A stretch of DNA of 64,000 nucleotides, from the NCBI RefSeq assembly GCF_002240565.1, contig NZ_MZMO01000001.1, forward strand, positions 1,860,001-1,924,000. The letters are read 5' to 3'. The translations under genes were made by a program, and so were the position numbers. This document shows positions 1,924 to 58,199 of the stretch, in pieces. The stretch's first letter is position 1, and every line of letters starts with the position of its first letter. The stretch is from Clavibacter michiganensis subsp. insidiosus. Lineage in GTDB: Bacteria; Actinomycetota; Actinomycetes; Actinomycetales; Microbacteriaceae. Below the pieces are notes generated by a model. The model saw only the letters and a list, made by a program, of their open reading frames with translations. It searched no databases and was not told where the DNA came from.

Positions 1924-3152
1924 GCGGACACCAGCTCCTCGTACACGGCGCGGTACTCGTCGGCCATGCGCCGCGGATCGAAGCGCCGGACGTCGCGCGT
2001 CTGGCGATCCGCGCGGCCGCCCGCGCGCTCGTCCGCGAGGAGCGCTGCCGCGAGCTCCCGGCCCGTGCCCACGACCGTGACGTCGGGGTGGTCGCCGAAC
2101 TCGCGGATCGCCGGCGAGTCGACGGCGAAGACCCGCATGCCGGCCGTCAGCGCCTCGGAGACGGTGAGCGGGAAGTAGTCGACCCGCGAGGTGAAGACGA
2201 GGCGGTCGTGGCGCCGCATCACGCGCGCCAGCTCGACGCGGTCGCCGGTGGCGGGCAGGCGCGCGGCGCCCGGGGCGTCCTCGGGTGCGTCGTCTCCCAT
2301 GATGGTGAGCCCTTCGGTCGTGTCCGCGGCGATGGCACGGAGCGCGTCCCAGTCGACCTTCGCGGGATCCCGGAGGTCGCGGCAGATGAACAGCGCCCCC
2401 GAGCGCGGTGCGTCCGATGGTACCCGTGCCGCGGTCGCCTCCGACCAGAACGCGCGGTCGACGGAGTTCGTGATCGTGCGCACGTCGTCGAAGCCGGCCG
2501 TGGCCGCCTCGGCCGCGAGCCAGTGCGCGCAGGCCACCACGGCCGAGGGCACGGCCAGGCGGAGGGCGGCGATGTCCTCGCGCCGCCGGGTGAAGACGCG
2601 CGCGGCGTTGTCGACGCGGGCGGGCGGGTACGCCTGGAGGTCCGGGCAGCGCGGGCAGCCGTCCTCCCAGAGCCGGCACGTGCCGGGCTGGGCGCAGCGG
2701 CCCGTCATGATCCACTGGTCGTGCAGGGTCCACACCACGGGCGTGCGCGCGGCGGCGATCTCGCGGAACAGCCACCGGGGCGGCAGCCAGTAGCTGTGGA
2801 CGATGTGCAGGTGCACCACGTCGGCGGCCGCGATGGCCGCGCGCAGCTCCTCGCGGCGGCCGGATGCCGGACGGACGACCTCGGTGCCGACGACGAGGTG
2901 CGCCGCCATGTTCAGGGCGGCGCGGGGCCGGGACGTGACGCGCAGCGACGCGCGGGCGTCCGCGCCGCCGGAGTCGCGGCCGCCGGGGCCGTAGCCGTAG
3001 GCGAAGGAGCCGTCCACGCCCAGCTCGCCCAGCTCGTGCATCAGCGTCCGCGCGACGCCGGCCGCGCCCCCCTCGCCGAGGCGCACGCTGAGGTGGAGGA
3101 CGCGGAGGGGCGGGGTGGCGGCACCCGGATCCGCGGCGGGCACGCCGCTCAT
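1920..3152 (-). CDS. Family 4 (GT-B) glycosyltransferase
   Basis: A 410-residue protein whose N-terminal half starts with VLHLSVRLGEGGAAG, the usual GT4 acceptor-domain opening with a glycine-rich loop, followed by VVHLHIVHSYWLPP and WTLHDQWIMTGRCAQPGTC, a stretch typical of WcaC/WbaZ-like polysaccharide transferases. The cysteines near residues 145-160 (CAQPGTC, CPRCPDL) are also seen in that group. The C-terminal half carries FTSRVDYFPLTVSEALTAG, matching the donor-binding E-x7-E region. It overlaps both neighbours by ATGA, so it is translationally coupled to the pyruvyl transferase upstream and the polymerase downstream. Role: addition of a sugar to the exopolysaccharide repeat; specificity unknown. 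Confidence 0.87.
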   Translation of the reverse strand: MSGVPAADPGAATPPLRVLHLSVRLGEGGAAGVARTLMHELGELGVDGSFAYGYGPGGRDSGGADARASLRVTSRPRAALNMAAHLVVGTEVVRPASGRREELRAAIAAADVVHLHIVHSYWLPPRWLFREIAAARTPVVWTLHDQWIMTGRCAQPGTCRLWEDGCPRCPDLQAYPPARVDNAARVFTRRREDIAALRLAVPSAVVACAHWLAAEAATAGFDDVRTITNSVDRAFWSEATAARVPSDAPRSGALFICRDLRDPAKVDWDALRAIAADTTEGLTIMGDDAPEDAPGAARLPATGDRVELARVMRRHDRLVFTSRVDYFPLTVSEALTAGMRVFAVDSPAIREFGDHPDVTVVGTGRELAAALLADERAGGRADRQTRDVRRFDPRRMADEYRAVYEELVSA

Positions 3153-4084
3153 CCGGCCACCGGGAGCTGCGCCTTCCAGGCGTGGATCTCGTCGTACGGG
3201 AGCCGCACGTCGAGGGGCGCGCGGCGCTCGACCGTCGCGCGGATGGCCTCCCGCTCGCCGCGGGCGTGCACGGGGAGGCCGGTGTCGCGGCTGATCTCCA
3301 GCGCCCGGTTGTCGACCGCGACGATGACGCCCCACGCCCCCGTCTCGAGCGCGCGGACGCCGCCGTGGAGGCGCGTGCCGATGTAGTCGGAGTCGCCGAC
3401 GGCGAGGAGCGCGTCGTAGGCGGCGAGCGTGGGCTCCGCGATCGTGAAGTCGCCCGTGAGCGTGCGCGCGTAGGCCGCGTCGCGGATGGACTGCGGCCAG
3501 ATCACGACGCGCGCGTAGTGCTCGGCGGCGAGGGCGATGAGCCACTCGTCCTCGGCGACGTCGCGGTTGTAGTCGGTGAGCGTCAGGATCGCCTGCGCGG
3601 GGCGCGCGCTCGCGACGCCGTTGTGCCGGTCGAGCCCCCACATGGTCGGGCACGCGGTGTTCACCACCTGGAAGCCCATCCGCTCGAGGCGCACCTTCGT
3701 GTACTCGTCGCGGACCGAGTGCACGAGGTCCGGCGAGAGGACCTCCCAGAGCATGTGCGTGGTGTAGCGGTTGGGCTCGTCCTGGTACTGCCACCAGCCG
3801 ACGCCGAGCAGGACGACCTTGTGCTTGAGGCTGCGCGCAACGATCGGGTCGAGCTTCCACTGCCGGTACCAGGGCATGTTCGAGGACAGGAGGTTGGTGC
3901 CGCCCACGATGGCGAGCTCGGCGTCGGCGGCGGTCCGGCGCTGGCTGCGGGTCAGGCGCGTCTGCGTGGGCAGGCTGCCGGTGATCGGCACGACGCCGTC
4001 GAGCGCCCGGAGGACGTTCTCGCGGATGATCTGGTCGCCGATGTTGGCGGACGAGATGGAGGGATCGAGCAGGAGTCCGTTCAT
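3149..4084 (-). CDS. Polysaccharide pyruvyl transferase family protein
   Basis: A 311-residue protein of the CsaB/WcaK/ExoV superfamily. It shows the N-terminal SSANIGDQIIRENVLRAL element, a glycine-rich IVGGTNLLSS stretch near residue 60, and the conserved C-terminal DSDYIGTRLHGGVRALETG motif around residues 230-250, whose arginine and histidine are hallmark residues of this family. These enzymes transfer a pyruvate ketal from phosphoenolpyruvate onto a sugar of a surface polymer. Known exopolysaccharide of Clavibacter contains pyruvate, which fits. The gene follows a ~100-base spacer after the acetyltransferase gene and overlaps the next gene by four bases. The acceptor sugar cannot be predicted. 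Confidence 0.88.
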   Translation of the reverse strand: MNGLLLDPSISSANIGDQIIRENVLRALDGVVPITGSLPTQTRLTRSQRRTAADAELAIVGGTNLLSSNMPWYRQWKLDPIVARSLKHKVVLLGVGWWQYQDEPNRYTTHMLWEVLSPDLVHSVRDEYTKVRLERMGFQVVNTACPTMWGLDRHNGVASARPAQAILTLTDYNRDVAEDEWLIALAAEHYARVVIWPQSIRDAAYARTLTGDFTIAEPTLAAYDALLAVGDSDYIGTRLHGGVRALETGAWGVIVAVDNRALEISRDTGLPVHARGEREAIRATVERRAPLDVRLPYDEIHAWKAQLPVAG

Positions 4085-4187
4085 GATGGAGCCTTCGTTC
4101 AGGGCGGCGACGGCAGATGCGGTCGCCGGCGGGAGAGGGATGGCCGCGGTGCGCGGGGCGCGCCGGAGCGGCCGGAGGACGCGCGCG

Positions 4188-4769
4188 TCAGCGTCCGGAG
4201 AAGCGCGACCCGACCACGGTGCAGTCGGGTCCCGACACGATCGCGCCAGCCGGCACGTCGCCCGCGACCACGGTCATCGGCCGGGCGAGCGCCGAGCGGC
4301 CCACGTGCGCGCCGCCGAGGACCAGGCAACGCGACGTGATCCACGCGCCCGGCTCGATGACGATGGGGCGCGTGAGGAGGGCCATGTCGCGCCGGTGCGC
4401 GTGGCTGCCCGTGGTGAGCATCGTCTCCTGGGAGAGCACGACGTCATGGCCGACGGTGATGAGGTCCTGGTTGTGGAACCAGACGCCCTCGCCGATCCAG
4501 GAGCGGTCGCCGATGCGCAGCTTCCATGGGAACTTCACCCGCGTGCGCGGCCGGAAGACCACCCCGTCGCCGATCTCGGCACCGAAGGCCCGGAGCGCCC
4601 GGACCCGGAGCGACGAGCTGATCTGCCACGGGTTCGTGACGAGGAGCAGCTCGACCACGGCCCAGAGGTAGACCGTGCGCTTGGGGCGGTCCCAGGCCTG
4701 GTGCTCGCCGGGCGCCCGAGAGAGGTCGATGACCGGGACGTCGGTCGAGGGGTCCTGCGCCGCCGTCAC
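4188..4769 (-). CDS. WcaF-like left-handed beta-helix acetyltransferase
   Basis: A 193-residue hexapeptide-repeat protein. An N-terminal hydrophobic stretch (YLWAVVELLLVTNPW) precedes imperfect hexapeptide turns such as AEIGDGVVFRPRTRVKFPW and LRIGDRSWIGEGVW; NQDLITVGHDVVLSQE and the TTGSHAH segment hold the catalytic histidine region of the LbH acetyltransferases. It most resembles WcaF, the colanic-acid acetyltransferase, and probably O-acetylates a sugar of the exopolysaccharide using acetyl-CoA. Its start overlaps the stop of the WcaI-like gene by ATGA. After its end lies about 100 bases without a gene before the pyruvyl transferase. Confidence 0.87.
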   Translation of the reverse strand: MTAAQDPSTDVPVIDLSRAPGEHQAWDRPKRTVYLWAVVELLLVTNPWQISSSLRVRALRAFGAEIGDGVVFRPRTRVKFPWKLRIGDRSWIGEGVWFHNQDLITVGHDVVLSQETMLTTGSHAHRRDMALLTRPIVIEPGAWITSRCLVLGGAHVGRSALARPMTVVAGDVPAGAIVSGPDCTVVGSRFSGR

Positions 4770-6052
4770 GCGCGCACCCCGGCGCCCATGGTGGCCAGCG
4801 ACTGCGCGAACCGCACGTACCTGGCGTGGGCGCTCACGGGCGAGTAGCGGCTCTGGTACATCCGCTGCGCGGCGGTGGTGAGGGCCGCGGCGCCGTCGCT
4901 GTCGCAGCGGAGGTCCTGCGCCGCCTGGAGGAGCCGCTCCGGGTCGCCCGGCGGGATGATGGCCGCGGCCCCGTGCTCGCGCACGACGCTCTCGGTGATG
5001 CCGCCGTCCTCGACCGCGGCGATGATCGGGCGCCTGCTGCTCGTGTACGACGTGAGCTTCGACGGCATGCTCATCTCGCGCACGCCCGGCTTCTCGTTGA
5101 GCAGGAGCGCATCAGCCGCGGCCAGCGCGTACGGGTAGTCGTCGCCGTCGAGCGGCGGGACGAAGCGCAGCGAGCGGATCCCCGCGCCCTGCGCCTCGAG
5201 GGCGGCCCGCTGGTTGCCGTCGCCCACGAGCACGAACTCGATGCCGAGGTCGCGGGCATCGGAGAGGCGCGCGGCCTCGACGACCGACTCCAGCCCCTGC
5301 TTCATGCCCATGTTGCCGGTGTGGACGACGGTGAACGCGTCGCGGGTCCAGCCGAGCCGGGTGCGGGCGGCCGCGGTGGAGACGTCCACCGGCGTGATGT
5401 GCGTGAAGTTCGGGAGCCCGGAGATGGATCCGTCGGGCAGGCCCTGCTGGACCAGCAGGTCGCCGAAGCGGGGCGTGATGACGCCGATCCGGTCGGCGCG
5501 ACGCAGGAGCGCGTACTCCCCCGACGCGATGAGCCGGGAGGCGCGACCGCCCGTGGTGCCGGACTCGCCCGCGGCGTTGCCCGTGAGGTCCTGCACCAGG
5601 ACGCCGAACGGACGGCGGCCGCGGCCGAGCGCCCCCGCGGCGAGGCCGGCGAGCGACGGCGTGACCGCGATGACGATCTCGCTCGTGTCGCGTCGCACCT
5701 CGCGGAGCGCTCCACGCAGGAAGCTCGCCTCGAGCCTCGCCCGGCCCGCGAGGTCCGGCGTCTCCGGGATGGTGTGGCGGACCCGGGTGATGCGGACGCC
5801 GTCGCGCATCTCCTCCCAGCGCCTGCCCTCGGCGTACCGCTCGTCCTGCAGCTTCCACTGCGGGTAGTGCGGTATCCCGGTGACCACGTGCACCGACGCC
5901 CCCGCGTCGGTGAGCGCCTCGGCCATCGCGGTCGTGTACGGCGCGATGCCCGTGGTCTCCGGCCAGTAGTTGATGCCGACCAGGCAGACCGTGAGGCCCC
6001 CCAGGTCCGCCGTCTGCGTGCGCGCAGCATCGGTCGTGCTCAGATCCCCCAT
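4766..6052 (-). CDS. WcaI-like family 4 glycosyltransferase, first gene of EPS operon
   Basis: A 428-residue GT-B glycosyltransferase. Near the N terminus VCLVGINYWPETTGIAPYT is the signature of the WcaI family, followed by HVVTGIPHYPQWKL, VTPSLAGLAAGAL and, in the C-terminal Rossmann domain, VVHTGNMGMKQGLESVVEAA and FVPPLDGDDYPYALAAADALLL. WcaI in colanic-acid synthesis is thought to transfer fucose, which would match the gmd-fcl pair divergently encoded on the other side of the promoter region; that link is inference. The gene is the first of a six-gene minus-strand operon whose members overlap by four bases or sit close together. The ATG at 6052 follows an ~170-base divergent intergenic region. 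Confidence 0.88.
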   Translation of the reverse strand: MGDLSTTDAARTQTADLGGLTVCLVGINYWPETTGIAPYTTAMAEALTDAGASVHVVTGIPHYPQWKLQDERYAEGRRWEEMRDGVRITRVRHTIPETPDLAGRARLEASFLRGALREVRRDTSEIVIAVTPSLAGLAAGALGRGRRPFGVLVQDLTGNAAGESGTTGGRASRLIASGEYALLRRADRIGVITPRFGDLLVQQGLPDGSISGLPNFTHITPVDVSTAAARTRLGWTRDAFTVVHTGNMGMKQGLESVVEAARLSDARDLGIEFVLVGDGNQRAALEAQGAGIRSLRFVPPLDGDDYPYALAAADALLLNEKPGVREMSMPSKLTSYTSSRRPIIAAVEDGGITESVVREHGAAAIIPPGDPERLLQAAQDLRCDSDGAAALTTAAQRMYQSRYSPVSAHARYVRFAQSLATMGAGVRA

Positions 6053-53407: not shown

Positions 53408-54061
53408 TCAGGCGGACGCGACCGCCGGGTGCAGCGACCGCAGGTACCGGCGCATGAAGACGCCCTGCACGATCCGGAGCACCGGGCTGGCCAGCCGCAT
53501 CGGCCACGACGCCGGTCGCGAGAAGACGCGCAGGGTGAGCCACACGCTGCCGTCGGGCTCCCGGGAGACGAGGAACGCCTCCTCGCCGCTCAGCGGGTGC
53601 CCGTGCACGGTGCCGTACGCGAAGCCGACCCGGTCGGTCTCCTGCACGGTGTACACGACGCGGACGGGTGCCTCGGGGTGGAACGGACCGAACGGCATGC
53701 GCAGCACGGCTGACGTGCCCGACGTGATCCACGCAGTGCCGTCGTCGCCGTACAGCGTCTCGCGCGGCCGGTCGACGGGCACCTGGGGCACCCCGTCCTC
53801 GTCGAACTCGAGGCCGGTGTAGCCGGGGTCGTCCGGCACCTCCTGCTCGATGCGCGTGACCTTGATCCCGCTGCCGCGCTGCACGCCCCACGTCATGAGG
53901 AGGGCGACGGCCTGCTCGAAGCGCTCGTCGCCGCTGCCGAGCCGGGCGCTCGCCTCGGCGGGACGGTAGCCCTCGGGCGGGTAGGTCATGATGTCGACGG
54001 CCTGGGTGCCGCCGACGGAGCCGTACGTGACGGCGGTCGCGGTGTAGGTGCTACGGCGCAT
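53408..54061 (-). CDS. DUF1990-family protein
   Basis: A 217-residue protein starting MRRSTYTATAVTYGSVGGTQ, followed by PPEGYRPAEASARLGSGDERFEQAVALLMTWGVQRGSG, VRVVYTVQETDRVGFAYGTVHGHPLSGEEAFLV and WLTLRVFSRPASW, the layout of DUF1990 proteins, which have a SRPBCC/START-like fold. Function unknown; plant and actinobacterial homologues exist. The start at 54061 matches the family N terminus better than the in-frame ATG at 54157. Confidence 0.85.
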   Translation of the reverse strand: MRRSTYTATAVTYGSVGGTQAVDIMTYPPEGYRPAEASARLGSGDERFEQAVALLMTWGVQRGSGIKVTRIEQEVPDDPGYTGLEFDEDGVPQVPVDRPRETLYGDDGTAWITSGTSAVLRMPFGPFHPEAPVRVVYTVQETDRVGFAYGTVHGHPLSGEEAFLVSREPDGSVWLTLRVFSRPASWPMRLASPVLRIVQGVFMRRYLRSLHPAVASA

Positions 54062-54355
54062 GCCGTCAAGACTACGGCGTGTCGCTGGGCGTCCCGCGCG
54101 TGCCGACGACGCGGCCTCTGCCATCCGTCGCGCCGCCGGATCGGGGGTGGACATCATCCGTCATCCCTGCGGAGGACGTGCGGGCCCCGCCCGTCATCCC
54201 GGCGCCGTAGCGCCCACCGGAGCGTCACCGGATCGTGACCTGGACGAGCGCGGGGCGACCTCCGCGCCCCCTAGCCTTCACACGACGACGGGCCTCCCGG
54301 CGCCGCCCCCACCCCATCCCGACGCTCCCCGTCGATCATCGGAAGGCTCTCCCGC
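54062..54355. promoter_or_regulatory. Divergent upstream region of secreted repeat protein gene
   Basis: About 294 bases without a gene. The last ~50 bases resemble the leader of the downstream paralogue: CCACCCCATCC at 54309-54319, CGACGCTC at 54320-54327 and CGGAAGG at the ribosome binding site recur before the second gene in the same order. A TAGCCT at about 54272 may be a -10 box; the paralogue has TAGCTT at a similar place. Confidence 0.4.
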
Positions 54356-55135
54356 ATGCTCCGCTCCCTCACCGCCCTCGCCGTCGTCGGCACCCTCGCC
54401 GTCGGCGGTCTCGTGGTCGCGACCCCCGCATCCGCCGCATCGGCGAGCGGCACGTTCTACTCGGTGCCCTACGACTCGACGCTCTTCGAGGTCTCTACGG
54501 TCGACGGTCGCCCGTACGTCGAGCCCGCGTCCTTCGAGTCGTGGCGCTCCGCCGGCTTCCCCAAGCCGGTCGCCGCCCCGACGGACTATCGACGATTCAC
54601 CTGGGACGCGACGATCTACGCCGTCTCAGCGGCGGGCTCCGCCTCCTTCTCCACCTACATCGACGGCGCCCAGTGGCGGCGCGTGGGATCCCCCGCACCC
54701 CGCACCGACCGACTCACCCCCTCGGCCACGATCCTCCAGTACCAGGGCTCGGACGAGCTCTTCGTCGTCGACGGCGGACCCTCCTGGGCAGATGACAACC
54801 CGGGCTACCACCAGCTGACCTTCGCCGAGTACGCGCACCTCGGCTACCCGGCGGTGGACCAGACCTCGCCGCGCATCTTCACGAAGCTCTCGTGGAACCC
54901 GACGCTCGTCGGGCCCATCTCGAGCACGGGCGAGACCGGCCCGGTGCCGTTCGACGTGTGGGACTACTTCGCCCGCCCCACGCCCGCCGTGGTCGCCTCC
55001 TACGACGGTGACAAGTTCTGCCAGGCTGCCGGAGCGGACGAGATCCGCTACATCGGCCAGGCCGCTCCGGATGGCATGGCGCTGACGTTCGGCGAGTGGG
55101 TCGCGGCTGGATCGCCGAAGCCCGCCACCTGCTGA
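54356..55135 (+). CDS. Secreted repeat protein of unknown family (paralogue 1)
   Basis: A 259-residue protein I do not recognise. Residues 1-29 are a Sec signal peptide (hydrophobic core, ATPASAASA cleavage region). The mature part consists of five repeats of ~43-52 residues, each ending in a W/Y-x3-G-x-P-x-P-like signature: FESWRSAGFPKP (60-71), AQWRRVGSPAP (105-115), FAEYAHLGYPA (156-166), FDVWDYFARPTP (199-210), FGEWVAAGSPKP (245-256). Repeat cores include DSTLFEV and DATIYAV. Only two cysteines, C222 and the terminal C259, flank the last repeat and may form a disulfide. No sortase or lipid anchor. Strong GGAAGG ribosome binding site. A tandem paralogue follows. Confidence 0.88.
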   Translation: MLRSLTALAVVGTLAVGGLVVATPASAASASGTFYSVPYDSTLFEVSTVDGRPYVEPASFESWRSAGFPKPVAAPTDYRRFTWDATIYAVSAAGSASFSTYIDGAQWRRVGSPAPRTDRLTPSATILQYQGSDELFVVDGGPSWADDNPGYHQLTFAEYAHLGYPAVDQTSPRIFTKLSWNPTLVGPISSTGETGPVPFDVWDYFARPTPAVVASYDGDKFCQAAGADEIRYIGQAAPDGMALTFGEWVAAGSPKPATC

Positions 55136-55501
55136 GCCTGTCCGCACGGCACGACGCGCCCCCCGCCTCCTCGGCGGGGGGCGCGTCGTGCGTCTGGGCT
55201 CCGGCAGCCGATCGGGACGTAGCACGGGTCGGATCCCCTGTCATCACCCCGTGTGGTGACGGCCCCTCCTCCCCGCGCGCCACCCCGTCCGGGGGTCATT
55301 TCCTAAGTGATGAAACCGTGATCAGAAAGGGATTCCGGTGACGCGGGGAACCGCTAGCTTGAGCGTGCGACGGCAAGCCGGAACGGGTCGGAGCGGATCG
55401 GGTCACCCGATGCGCACGTGCCACATGGGCGCCGCAGCTCCTGTTCCCCTCCACCCCATCCACCCTCTCCGACGCTCGTCGTCGACCACCGGAAGGCCAC
55501 C
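55136..55501. promoter_or_regulatory. Intergenic region between the two secreted paralogues
   Basis: 366 bases without a gene. It starts with the hairpin at 55149-55191; then comes a GC-rich stretch, then an unusually AT-rich segment at about 55300-55335 (GGTCATTTCCTAAGTGATGAAACC) with a nearby TAGCTT at about 55354-55359 that could be the -10 box of the second gene. The last 50 bases repeat the leader elements of the first paralogue. Confidence 0.4.
55149..55191. terminator. U-less terminator hairpin after secreted paralogue 1
   Basis: 19-bp inverted repeat: arms 55149-55167 and 55173-55191, loop TCCTC, 13 bases after the stop. No T-run. Outer stem GCACGACGCG/CGCGTCGTGC is the same as in the hairpin after the second paralogue. 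Confidence 0.8.
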
Positions 55502-56280
55502 ATGAACCGCTCACTGCCCGCCCTCGCCCTCGTCGGGGCGCTCGCCCTCGGCGGCTCGCTGCTCGCCGCGGCGCCCGCCCAGGCCGCCGCCGGGGGGACC
55601 TACTACTCGGTCCCCTTCAGCGACTCCCTCATCCTGGAGTCCTCCATCTCCGCCGACGAGCCCGGCGTCGGGTACGCGTCCTACGCGGAGTGGAAGGCCG
55701 ACGGCTTCCCGCGCCCCGTGCCCGCCGACGCGGAGTACCGCGTCCTCCCCTGGGACAGCACCGTCTTCGCCGACGTGATCGGCACGCACTCCGGCCTCAC
55801 CGCGACGCTGTCCGGCGCCGAGTGGCGCCGCGCGGGATCGCCGACCCCCACGCGCAACGTGCTCCCGATCTCCTCCCTCGTCGTCCAGTACGACACGTCC
55901 GACGAGCTGCTCGTCCGCACCGGCACGCTCTGGGGTCGGACGCCGCCGAGTGGCACACGATGACCTTCTCCGAGTGGCGGACCCTCGGCTACCCGGCCGT
56001 CGACTACCGCCCCGGGACCGGCTTCTCACGGCTGGCCTGGCTCGACACGATCGTCGGCCCGGACCCCGTCAAGGCCGGGGACGGCCCGATCGGCTACGAC
56101 ACGTGGCTCGACGCCGGTCGCCCGACGCCGAAGGTCCTGCAGGCGTTCCCGTTCGACAAGTACTGCTCCACCCCGGGCAGCGCCGAGATCCGCTACGTCG
56201 GCATGGCCGCTCCCGAGGGGCTCGCGTTGACGTTCCGCCAGTGGGTCGCCGCCGGCTCGCGGACGCCGACCGCCTGCTGA
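55502..56280 (+). pseudogene. Secreted repeat protein paralogue 2, frameshifted
   Basis: Signal peptide (MNRSLPALALVGALALGG with AQAAAG cleavage region), then the same five-repeat architecture as the upstream gene. The frame breaks at a GGGG tract, 55932-55935: up to LVRTGTLWG the first frame matches paralogue 1; after it the next frame continues SDAAEWHTMTFSEWRTLGYPAVD through to FRQWVAAGSRTPTAC. The span is 779 nt against 780 in paralogue 1; adding one base gives exactly 259 residues, identical in length. The final Cys pair is kept. As it stands, translation stops about 154 residues in. Sequencing error, pseudogenisation or phase variation are all possible. Confidence 0.88.

Positions 56281-56351: not shown

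Positions 56352-58199
<1,848 letters not shown>

Follow-up and report, generated by a model that had tools for sequence, protein, structure and literature searches.

Between a DUF1990 gene and lepA, which encodes elongation factor 4, the chromosome of Clavibacter michiganensis subsp. insidiosus (RefSeq assembly GCF_002240565.1, contig NZ_MZMO01000001.1) carries two neighbouring copies of a repeat gene, which we refer to as paralogue 1 (P0001) and paralogue 2. Both lie in a stretch of 64,000 nucleotides (contig positions 1,860,001 to 1,924,000, hereafter the window) and all coordinates are those of this stretch (Table 1). The repeat that these genes encode is an undescribed domain family and not a unique protein, and we consider it somewhat more probable than otherwise that it is a secreted wall- or polysaccharide-binding module, which is free-standing in Clavibacter.

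Paralogue 1 has a hydrophobic, signal-like N terminus (the leader was judged by eye) followed by five boxes of the form [WY]x3[GA]xPx[PV], which start at residues 63, 107, 159, 202 and 248 and are thus spaced by 44, 52, 43 and 46 residues. Four of the five have the strict form W-x3-[GA]-x-P-x-P, box 3 reading YAHLGYPAV. When residues 30-259 were shuffled 100,000 times and the loose box pattern was counted, 93,791 shuffles contained no box, 6,047 one, 160 two and 2 three, and none contained four or more. The mature protein has two cysteines, residues 222 and 259, and exactly two mature cysteines are also present in all 37 intact copies collected from 13 Clavibacter genomes, one at the C-terminal end and the other 38 (34 copies) or 39 (3 copies) residues from that end. 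We infer that paralogue 1 is exported and that these cysteines form a C-terminal disulfide.

The predicted models of paralogue 1 and of a second family member each comprise five beta-beta-beta-alpha units (mean predicted local distance difference test, pLDDT, 85 and 91). In each unit, three short strands would be followed by a short helix bearing the conserved tryptophan, with the G-x-P-x-P turn closing the unit, and the five units are predicted to form one domain. Neither model had a significant structural match in the PDB with Foldseek or VIA, the PDB gave no match by sequence and a viral fold library gave none at E <= 0.001. Five-bladed beta-propellers, which include the tachylectin type, also have five units, and single blades of GH62 propellers align with single units (~31-41 residues), but the unit considered here is made of three strands and a helix and the TM-score does not exceed 0.17 among the matches listed; no whole-domain match to a closed propeller was obtained with Foldseek or VIA, a result with which a propeller remains compatible. 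The best PDB match, a weak one, was EccB1, for the second model with both programs and for the first with VIA. According to PMC4769845, the repeats of EccB1 resemble PlyCB, a phage wall-binding subunit, and they share with the window repeat an extracytoplasmic location, units of ~45-55 residues made of beta-strands and helix, and proline-rich linkers. EccB, a component of type VII secretion, differs, however, in its membrane anchor and in its four repeats, which surround a central domain, and its homology by profile is unsupported, since the hhalign score of the repeat against an EccB profile (11 sequences from genomes of the same order) was 8.9, within the shuffled controls.

Paralogue 2 is distributed over two open pieces in different frames, of which the first is 42% identical to paralogue 1 over 110 amino acids and the second 47% over 113. 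Its upstream element and its C-terminal residues assign it to the second-position class, and it groups with the intact second-position copies of four other Clavibacter genomes (G004, G010, G013 and G016). As these counterparts are intact, the break is either specific to the window genome or a sequencing error, so that this genome holds one intact and one broken copy, unless the sequence itself is at fault. A preliminary description, made from the letters of the stretch, had spoken of tandem secreted proteins with five repeats, a signal peptide and one C-terminal disulfide candidate. The repeats and their spacings are exact in paralogue 1, whose N terminus is signal-like and whose cysteine pair is kept throughout the intact copies, and the tandem is correct as regards paralogue 1 but not paralogue 2, split as it is over two frames. 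The structure prediction proposed there as a check returned five equivalent units in both models, and neither of the two outcomes named there as contrary evidence, a profile match to a named domain of known function or a model lacking five equivalent units, occurred.

Table 1. Features of the repeat gene slot and its borders (positions in the window; E, strand; H, helix; residue numbers refer to paralogue 1 and its unit boundaries are approximate)
Feature	Position	Strand	Remarks
DUF1990 gene	53408..54157	-	Slot border in 17/17 genomes with the slot on one contig
MtrA-box-like repeat upstream of paralogue 1	54224..54239	+	GTCAC-N6-GTGAC; one of 12 such places in the genome
Paralogue 1 (P0001)	54356..55135	+	Intact frame of 259 amino acids, probably exported, five repeat units
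Unit 1	54449..54580	+	~Residues 32-75; E34-37, E40-49, E52-57, H60-65; box W63
Unit 2	54581..54712	+	~Residues 76-119; E76-80, E87-93, E96-102, H104-109; box W107
Unit 3	54713..54865	+	~Residues 120-170; E124-129, E135-139, E150-154, H156-161; box Y159
Unit 4	54866..54994	+	~Residues 171-213; E176-178, E181-187, E194-196, H199-204; box W202
Unit 5	54995..55132	+	~Residues 214-259; E220-223, E231-234, E237-242, H245-250; box W248; contains Cys222 and Cys259
Direct repeat of similar form ahead of paralogue 2	55307..55322	+	GTGAT-N6-GTGAT; also before the Ig-repeat gene in other species
Paralogue 2, first open piece	55502..55963	+	Homologous to residues 1-147; first part of the copy reaches ~55942
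Paralogue 2, second open piece	55951..56280	+	Different frame; homologous to residues ~146-259
lepA (elongation factor 4)	56352..58199	-	Other slot border

A search with paralogue 1 recovered 25 proteins, and all those with an organism in their source name are from Clavibacter, the closest being 95% identical (a C. nebraskensis entry). A distant homologue, P0025, in turn recovered 154 homologues; organisms named in the 120 matches listed include Saccharothrix, Actinosynnema, Arthrobacter, Pseudarthrobacter, Cellulomonas, Antribacter, Microbacterium, Cryobacterium and Clavibacter, and many of them are nameless or called 'hypothetical protein'. The preliminary description had left the family unrecognised, which holds for Pfam and NCBIfam, as no model reached its cut-off over the repeat in any protein scanned, but the family is a large one, judging by the homologues of this single distant member. 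Genome searches found it in at least 3 of 394 genomes class-wide (at most 6 candidates scored per genome) and in at least 9 of 249 at family level (at most 9 scored). Phage records contained no match to P0025; plasmid records gave 56 matches to P0106, and among the 20 listed two from Paenibacillus cover residues 243-340 (29% of the query), the other 18 matching only the C-terminal Excalibur part. No title or abstract opening describing the repeat family was found in the literature, the coverage of the search being poor for subscription journals.

Several Pfam rows lay below cut-off: DUF5065 on P0001 (residues 4-30), NHase_beta_N on residues 83-150 of P0087 (15.9 of 21.5 bits) and, in a set of 23 members (A1), DUF7422 in three, CysA_C_terminal in two and Nbas_N, DUF6732 and CTD2 in one each (best E 0.069). 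The precomputed Pfam column of the 120 listed relatives also holds PF27111 in four proteins and PF27542 in three, for which the local Pfam copy gave no row in the members rescanned. Because these counts equal those of the Rv1352/Rv1906c (4) and sunset (3) partners, and most repeat-bearing proteins lack both entries, we take them tentatively as the corresponding tails.

The domains found beside the repeat are varied. Among the 120 listed P0025 matches (P0025 included), Excalibur occurs in 37, GmrSD_C in 17, CAP in 8, polysaccharide deacetylase in 5, Rv1352/Rv1906c in 4, sunset in 3 and GDSL and DUF7034 in one each, while loci taken from whole genomes encode fusions to Peptidase_M23 (L079 and L083, two species of one genus), GH71 (L077), GH6 (L085), VanY (L139), SpoIID (L133), GmrSD_C (L131) and TIG (L134). 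Fourteen locus proteins were scanned, 13 with the repeat and one (L070) an Ig-repeat gene product, and a partner above the Pfam cut-off was present in 8 of the 13 and absent from 5. Counted by eye, the GH71 and SpoIID fusions have ~3 units each and the VanY fusion ~10, arranged in two blocks N-terminal to the VanY peptidase (L139, 1021-3144, plus strand, genome G640). Another locus, L086 of genome G023 (~3100-4790, minus strand), has the repeat module beside a GH6-like domain, split across frames, its relative in G105 (L085) being intact. Free-standing tandem pairs were also seen outside Clavibacter (L080 and L081 in G201, L138 in G640).

LysM, SH3b and carbohydrate-binding modules (CBM) are accessory modules that bind walls or carbohydrates. 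The window-type repeat is like them small, exported and shuffled among several unrelated enzyme families, but it has no above-cut-off match to a named module in Pfam or NCBIfam. Its likeness to Excalibur secreted proteins lies in the 37 relatives that carry Excalibur, which is C-terminal to the repeat in P0025, P0050 and P0057; the window protein, by contrast, ends at unit 5 and lacks PF05901, and Excalibur is a separate, named domain.

Eighteen Clavibacter genomes, that of the window included, were then compared at this slot. The lepA and DUF1990 genes are present in all of them, and array members in 13, always between these two genes, in arrays of every size from 1 to 5 copies, which together hold 37 intact copies and the broken one of the window. 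Three array-less genomes (G005, G012 and G017) have in the slot a protein that ends in LPVTG or LPMTG, followed by a hydrophobic stretch and a basic tail, and that has a Big_13 domain in G012 according to Pfam. A search with the G012 protein found it in 4 of the 18 genomes, these three and G003, and in none of the 13 array genomes, so the array and the LPxTG-type Ig-repeat gene never co-occur. The Ig-repeat loci (L063, L070, L075 and L088) lie in the slot in G005, G012 and G017 and on the lepA contig in G003. Only 3 bases separate the matched parts of the slot flanks in G009. The Ig-repeat slot gene, L080/L081 and the genes behind the other strict boxes considered below were obtained as mechanical open reading frames filtered by GC content at third codon positions (GC3). 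A second relative of the repeat is found at another locus in six of the genomes (G001, G002, G006, G007, G011 and G015) but not in that of the window, with, by eye, an Excalibur-like tail in L036 and an Rv1352-like tail in L037.

A quick tree, from which the broken paralogue 2 is left out, clusters the copies partly by array position and not by genome, and some duplications therefore predate several species. Synonymous divergence (dS) from the G010 counterpart is 0.45 for paralogue 1, compared with 0.14 for lepA and 0.23 for the DUF1990 gene, and this excess over the flanks makes replacement of array copies by recombination likely. Gene-wide positive selection was not seen, the ratio of non-synonymous to synonymous divergence (dN/dS, Nei-Gojobori) being 0.10-0.62 in 16 of 16 ortholog pairs. 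Copies would multiply, diverge and be replaced at one chromosomal slot.

The first gene of the slot is preceded, on the gene strand, by the motif GTNAY-N6-GTNAY in 15 of 16 genomes (G013 is the miss) against a summed shuffle expectation of 0.11, although related genomes are not independent and the count therefore amounts to about three events. The same motif precedes all five second copies. It was read from upstream regions before being tested, and the class GTTAT..GTGAY (seven genomes), outside the region first read, is the real test. According to PMC13189361, MtrA sites are direct repeats of the form GtnAcC-n5-GTnAcn, and PMC5650626 likewise deals with direct-repeat MtrA sites. In the window genome, 12 places hold the strict form GTNACCN5GTNAC, with 13 occurrences in all against none in the control; besides the one before paralogue 1, three of them immediately precede genes for a subtilase, an ABC ATPase and a Bmp lipoprotein. 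With up to 3 mismatches allowed, the genome has a single paralogue 2-type element (c2). GTGAT-N6-GTGAT stands before both the second-copy class and the Ig-repeat gene, two kinds of gene with unrelated products. MtrA and MtrB equivalogs above cut-off and LpqB are encoded in the window genome, which thus combines a box of the published form upstream of the gene with the regulator itself, and the first gene of the slot may respond to the MtrAB system, as far as a DNA motif can suggest it. The lack of a loose box on either strand of the 7-kb mtrAB-lpqB stretch weighs against calling the motif an MtrA box. GTNAC is also self-complementary, and the paralogue 1 site may equally be taken for an inverted repeat that serves a different regulator. 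A scan for sigma-70-type promoters gave 0 sites.

The reading of the repeat as a binding module is based on the set of its partners, which is of the kind expected for an accessory module that serves secreted enzymes in binding. In the relatives it is joined to wall- or glycan-active enzymes from several unrelated families, as is the mark of wall- and carbohydrate-binding modules, whereas the window copies are free-standing. The weak fold echo of EccB1, the constancy of the cysteine pair and the LPxTG surface-type protein in the same slot elsewhere are consistent with it. In the relatives, the domain would hold the attached peptidoglycan- or polysaccharide-cutting or -modifying enzymes to their substrate, and in Clavibacter a free exported protein, locked by its single C-terminal disulfide, would coat or read a polymer of the cell envelope. 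The wall or glycans of the cell itself are the likeliest ligand, and passing plant wall polymers a possible one. The stable extracellular binding protein of the preliminary description is supported by the five-unit fold, the conserved cysteines and the fusions to secreted enzymes that act on walls or polysaccharides; of the host or cell-wall polymer that it had proposed as ligand, the fusions sustain wall or polysaccharide binding, but a host polymer is not favoured over the own wall.

Such a ligand on the plant side is a rival explanation, in which the free Clavibacter proteins would attach to cellulose, xylan or pectin, or else to proteins of the plant surface, as adhesins or decoys in the xylem. 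Clavibacter is plant-associated (PMC7839047), relatives have the module joined to GH6 and GH71, and species differ in the number of copies, from 0 to 5, as they do for niche genes, yet the relatives outside the genus include Saccharothrix, Arthrobacter and Cellulomonas, the partners include peptidoglycan peptidases and the dN/dS ratios give no gene-wide sign of an arms race, and we regard this explanation as rather unlikely. Among published secretomes, PMC5217389 lists CMM_1557, with others, as a 'putative secreted protein', but no correspondence between its locus tags and the array genes could be established, and the accessible main text of PMC7839047 has no CMN_0153x or CMN_0154x entry, the array again not being mappable to its tags.

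The mixed partners, among them the nuclease-type GmrSD_C (17 of the 120 listed), Excalibur and CAP, would also suit a scaffold or protein-protein domain that has no glycan ligand and gathers or inhibits secreted proteins. GmrSD_C is indeed the odd one out among the partners and counts against wall or polysaccharide binding, but the repeated link to unrelated wall- or polysaccharide-active enzymes (M23, VanY, SpoIID, deacetylase, GH71 and GH6) is the usual mark of an accessory module, which makes a scaffold quite improbable. Kinship to the necrosis protein Nec1, a plant-active virulence protein, can practically be dismissed: nec1 is the best-scoring Pfam row for P0001 (E 0.043) and is weakly present in 6 of the 23 A1 members (best E 0.012), but it reaches only 13.8 bits for a cut-off of 27, and the match, residues 3-48, consists of the leader and ~20 residues, with nothing deeper in the mature protein.

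On the wall- or polysaccharide-binding reading, the ligand would be the cell's own envelope more probably than a plant polymer. It is tempting, but on balance doubtful, to go further and see in this unnamed five-unit family a switchable surface cassette of Clavibacter, with one slot and one shared operator that serve either an array of 1-5 copies or a sortase-anchored Ig-repeat protein, so that the surface met by the plant or by phages would differ between species or lineages. The self-complementary half-site leaves the regulator more open and makes this cassette less probable. As for the family at large, none of the curated domain models scanned reaches its cut-off on this module, which is found again and again beside peptidoglycan peptidases, deacetylases and glycoside hydrolases, and the identity of its ligand would show where a group of enzymes secreted by actinobacteria is kept. 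In Clavibacter, the array and a sortase-type protein exclude each other at one slot, behind one operator-like motif, which makes a change of surface between plant-associated species directly testable.
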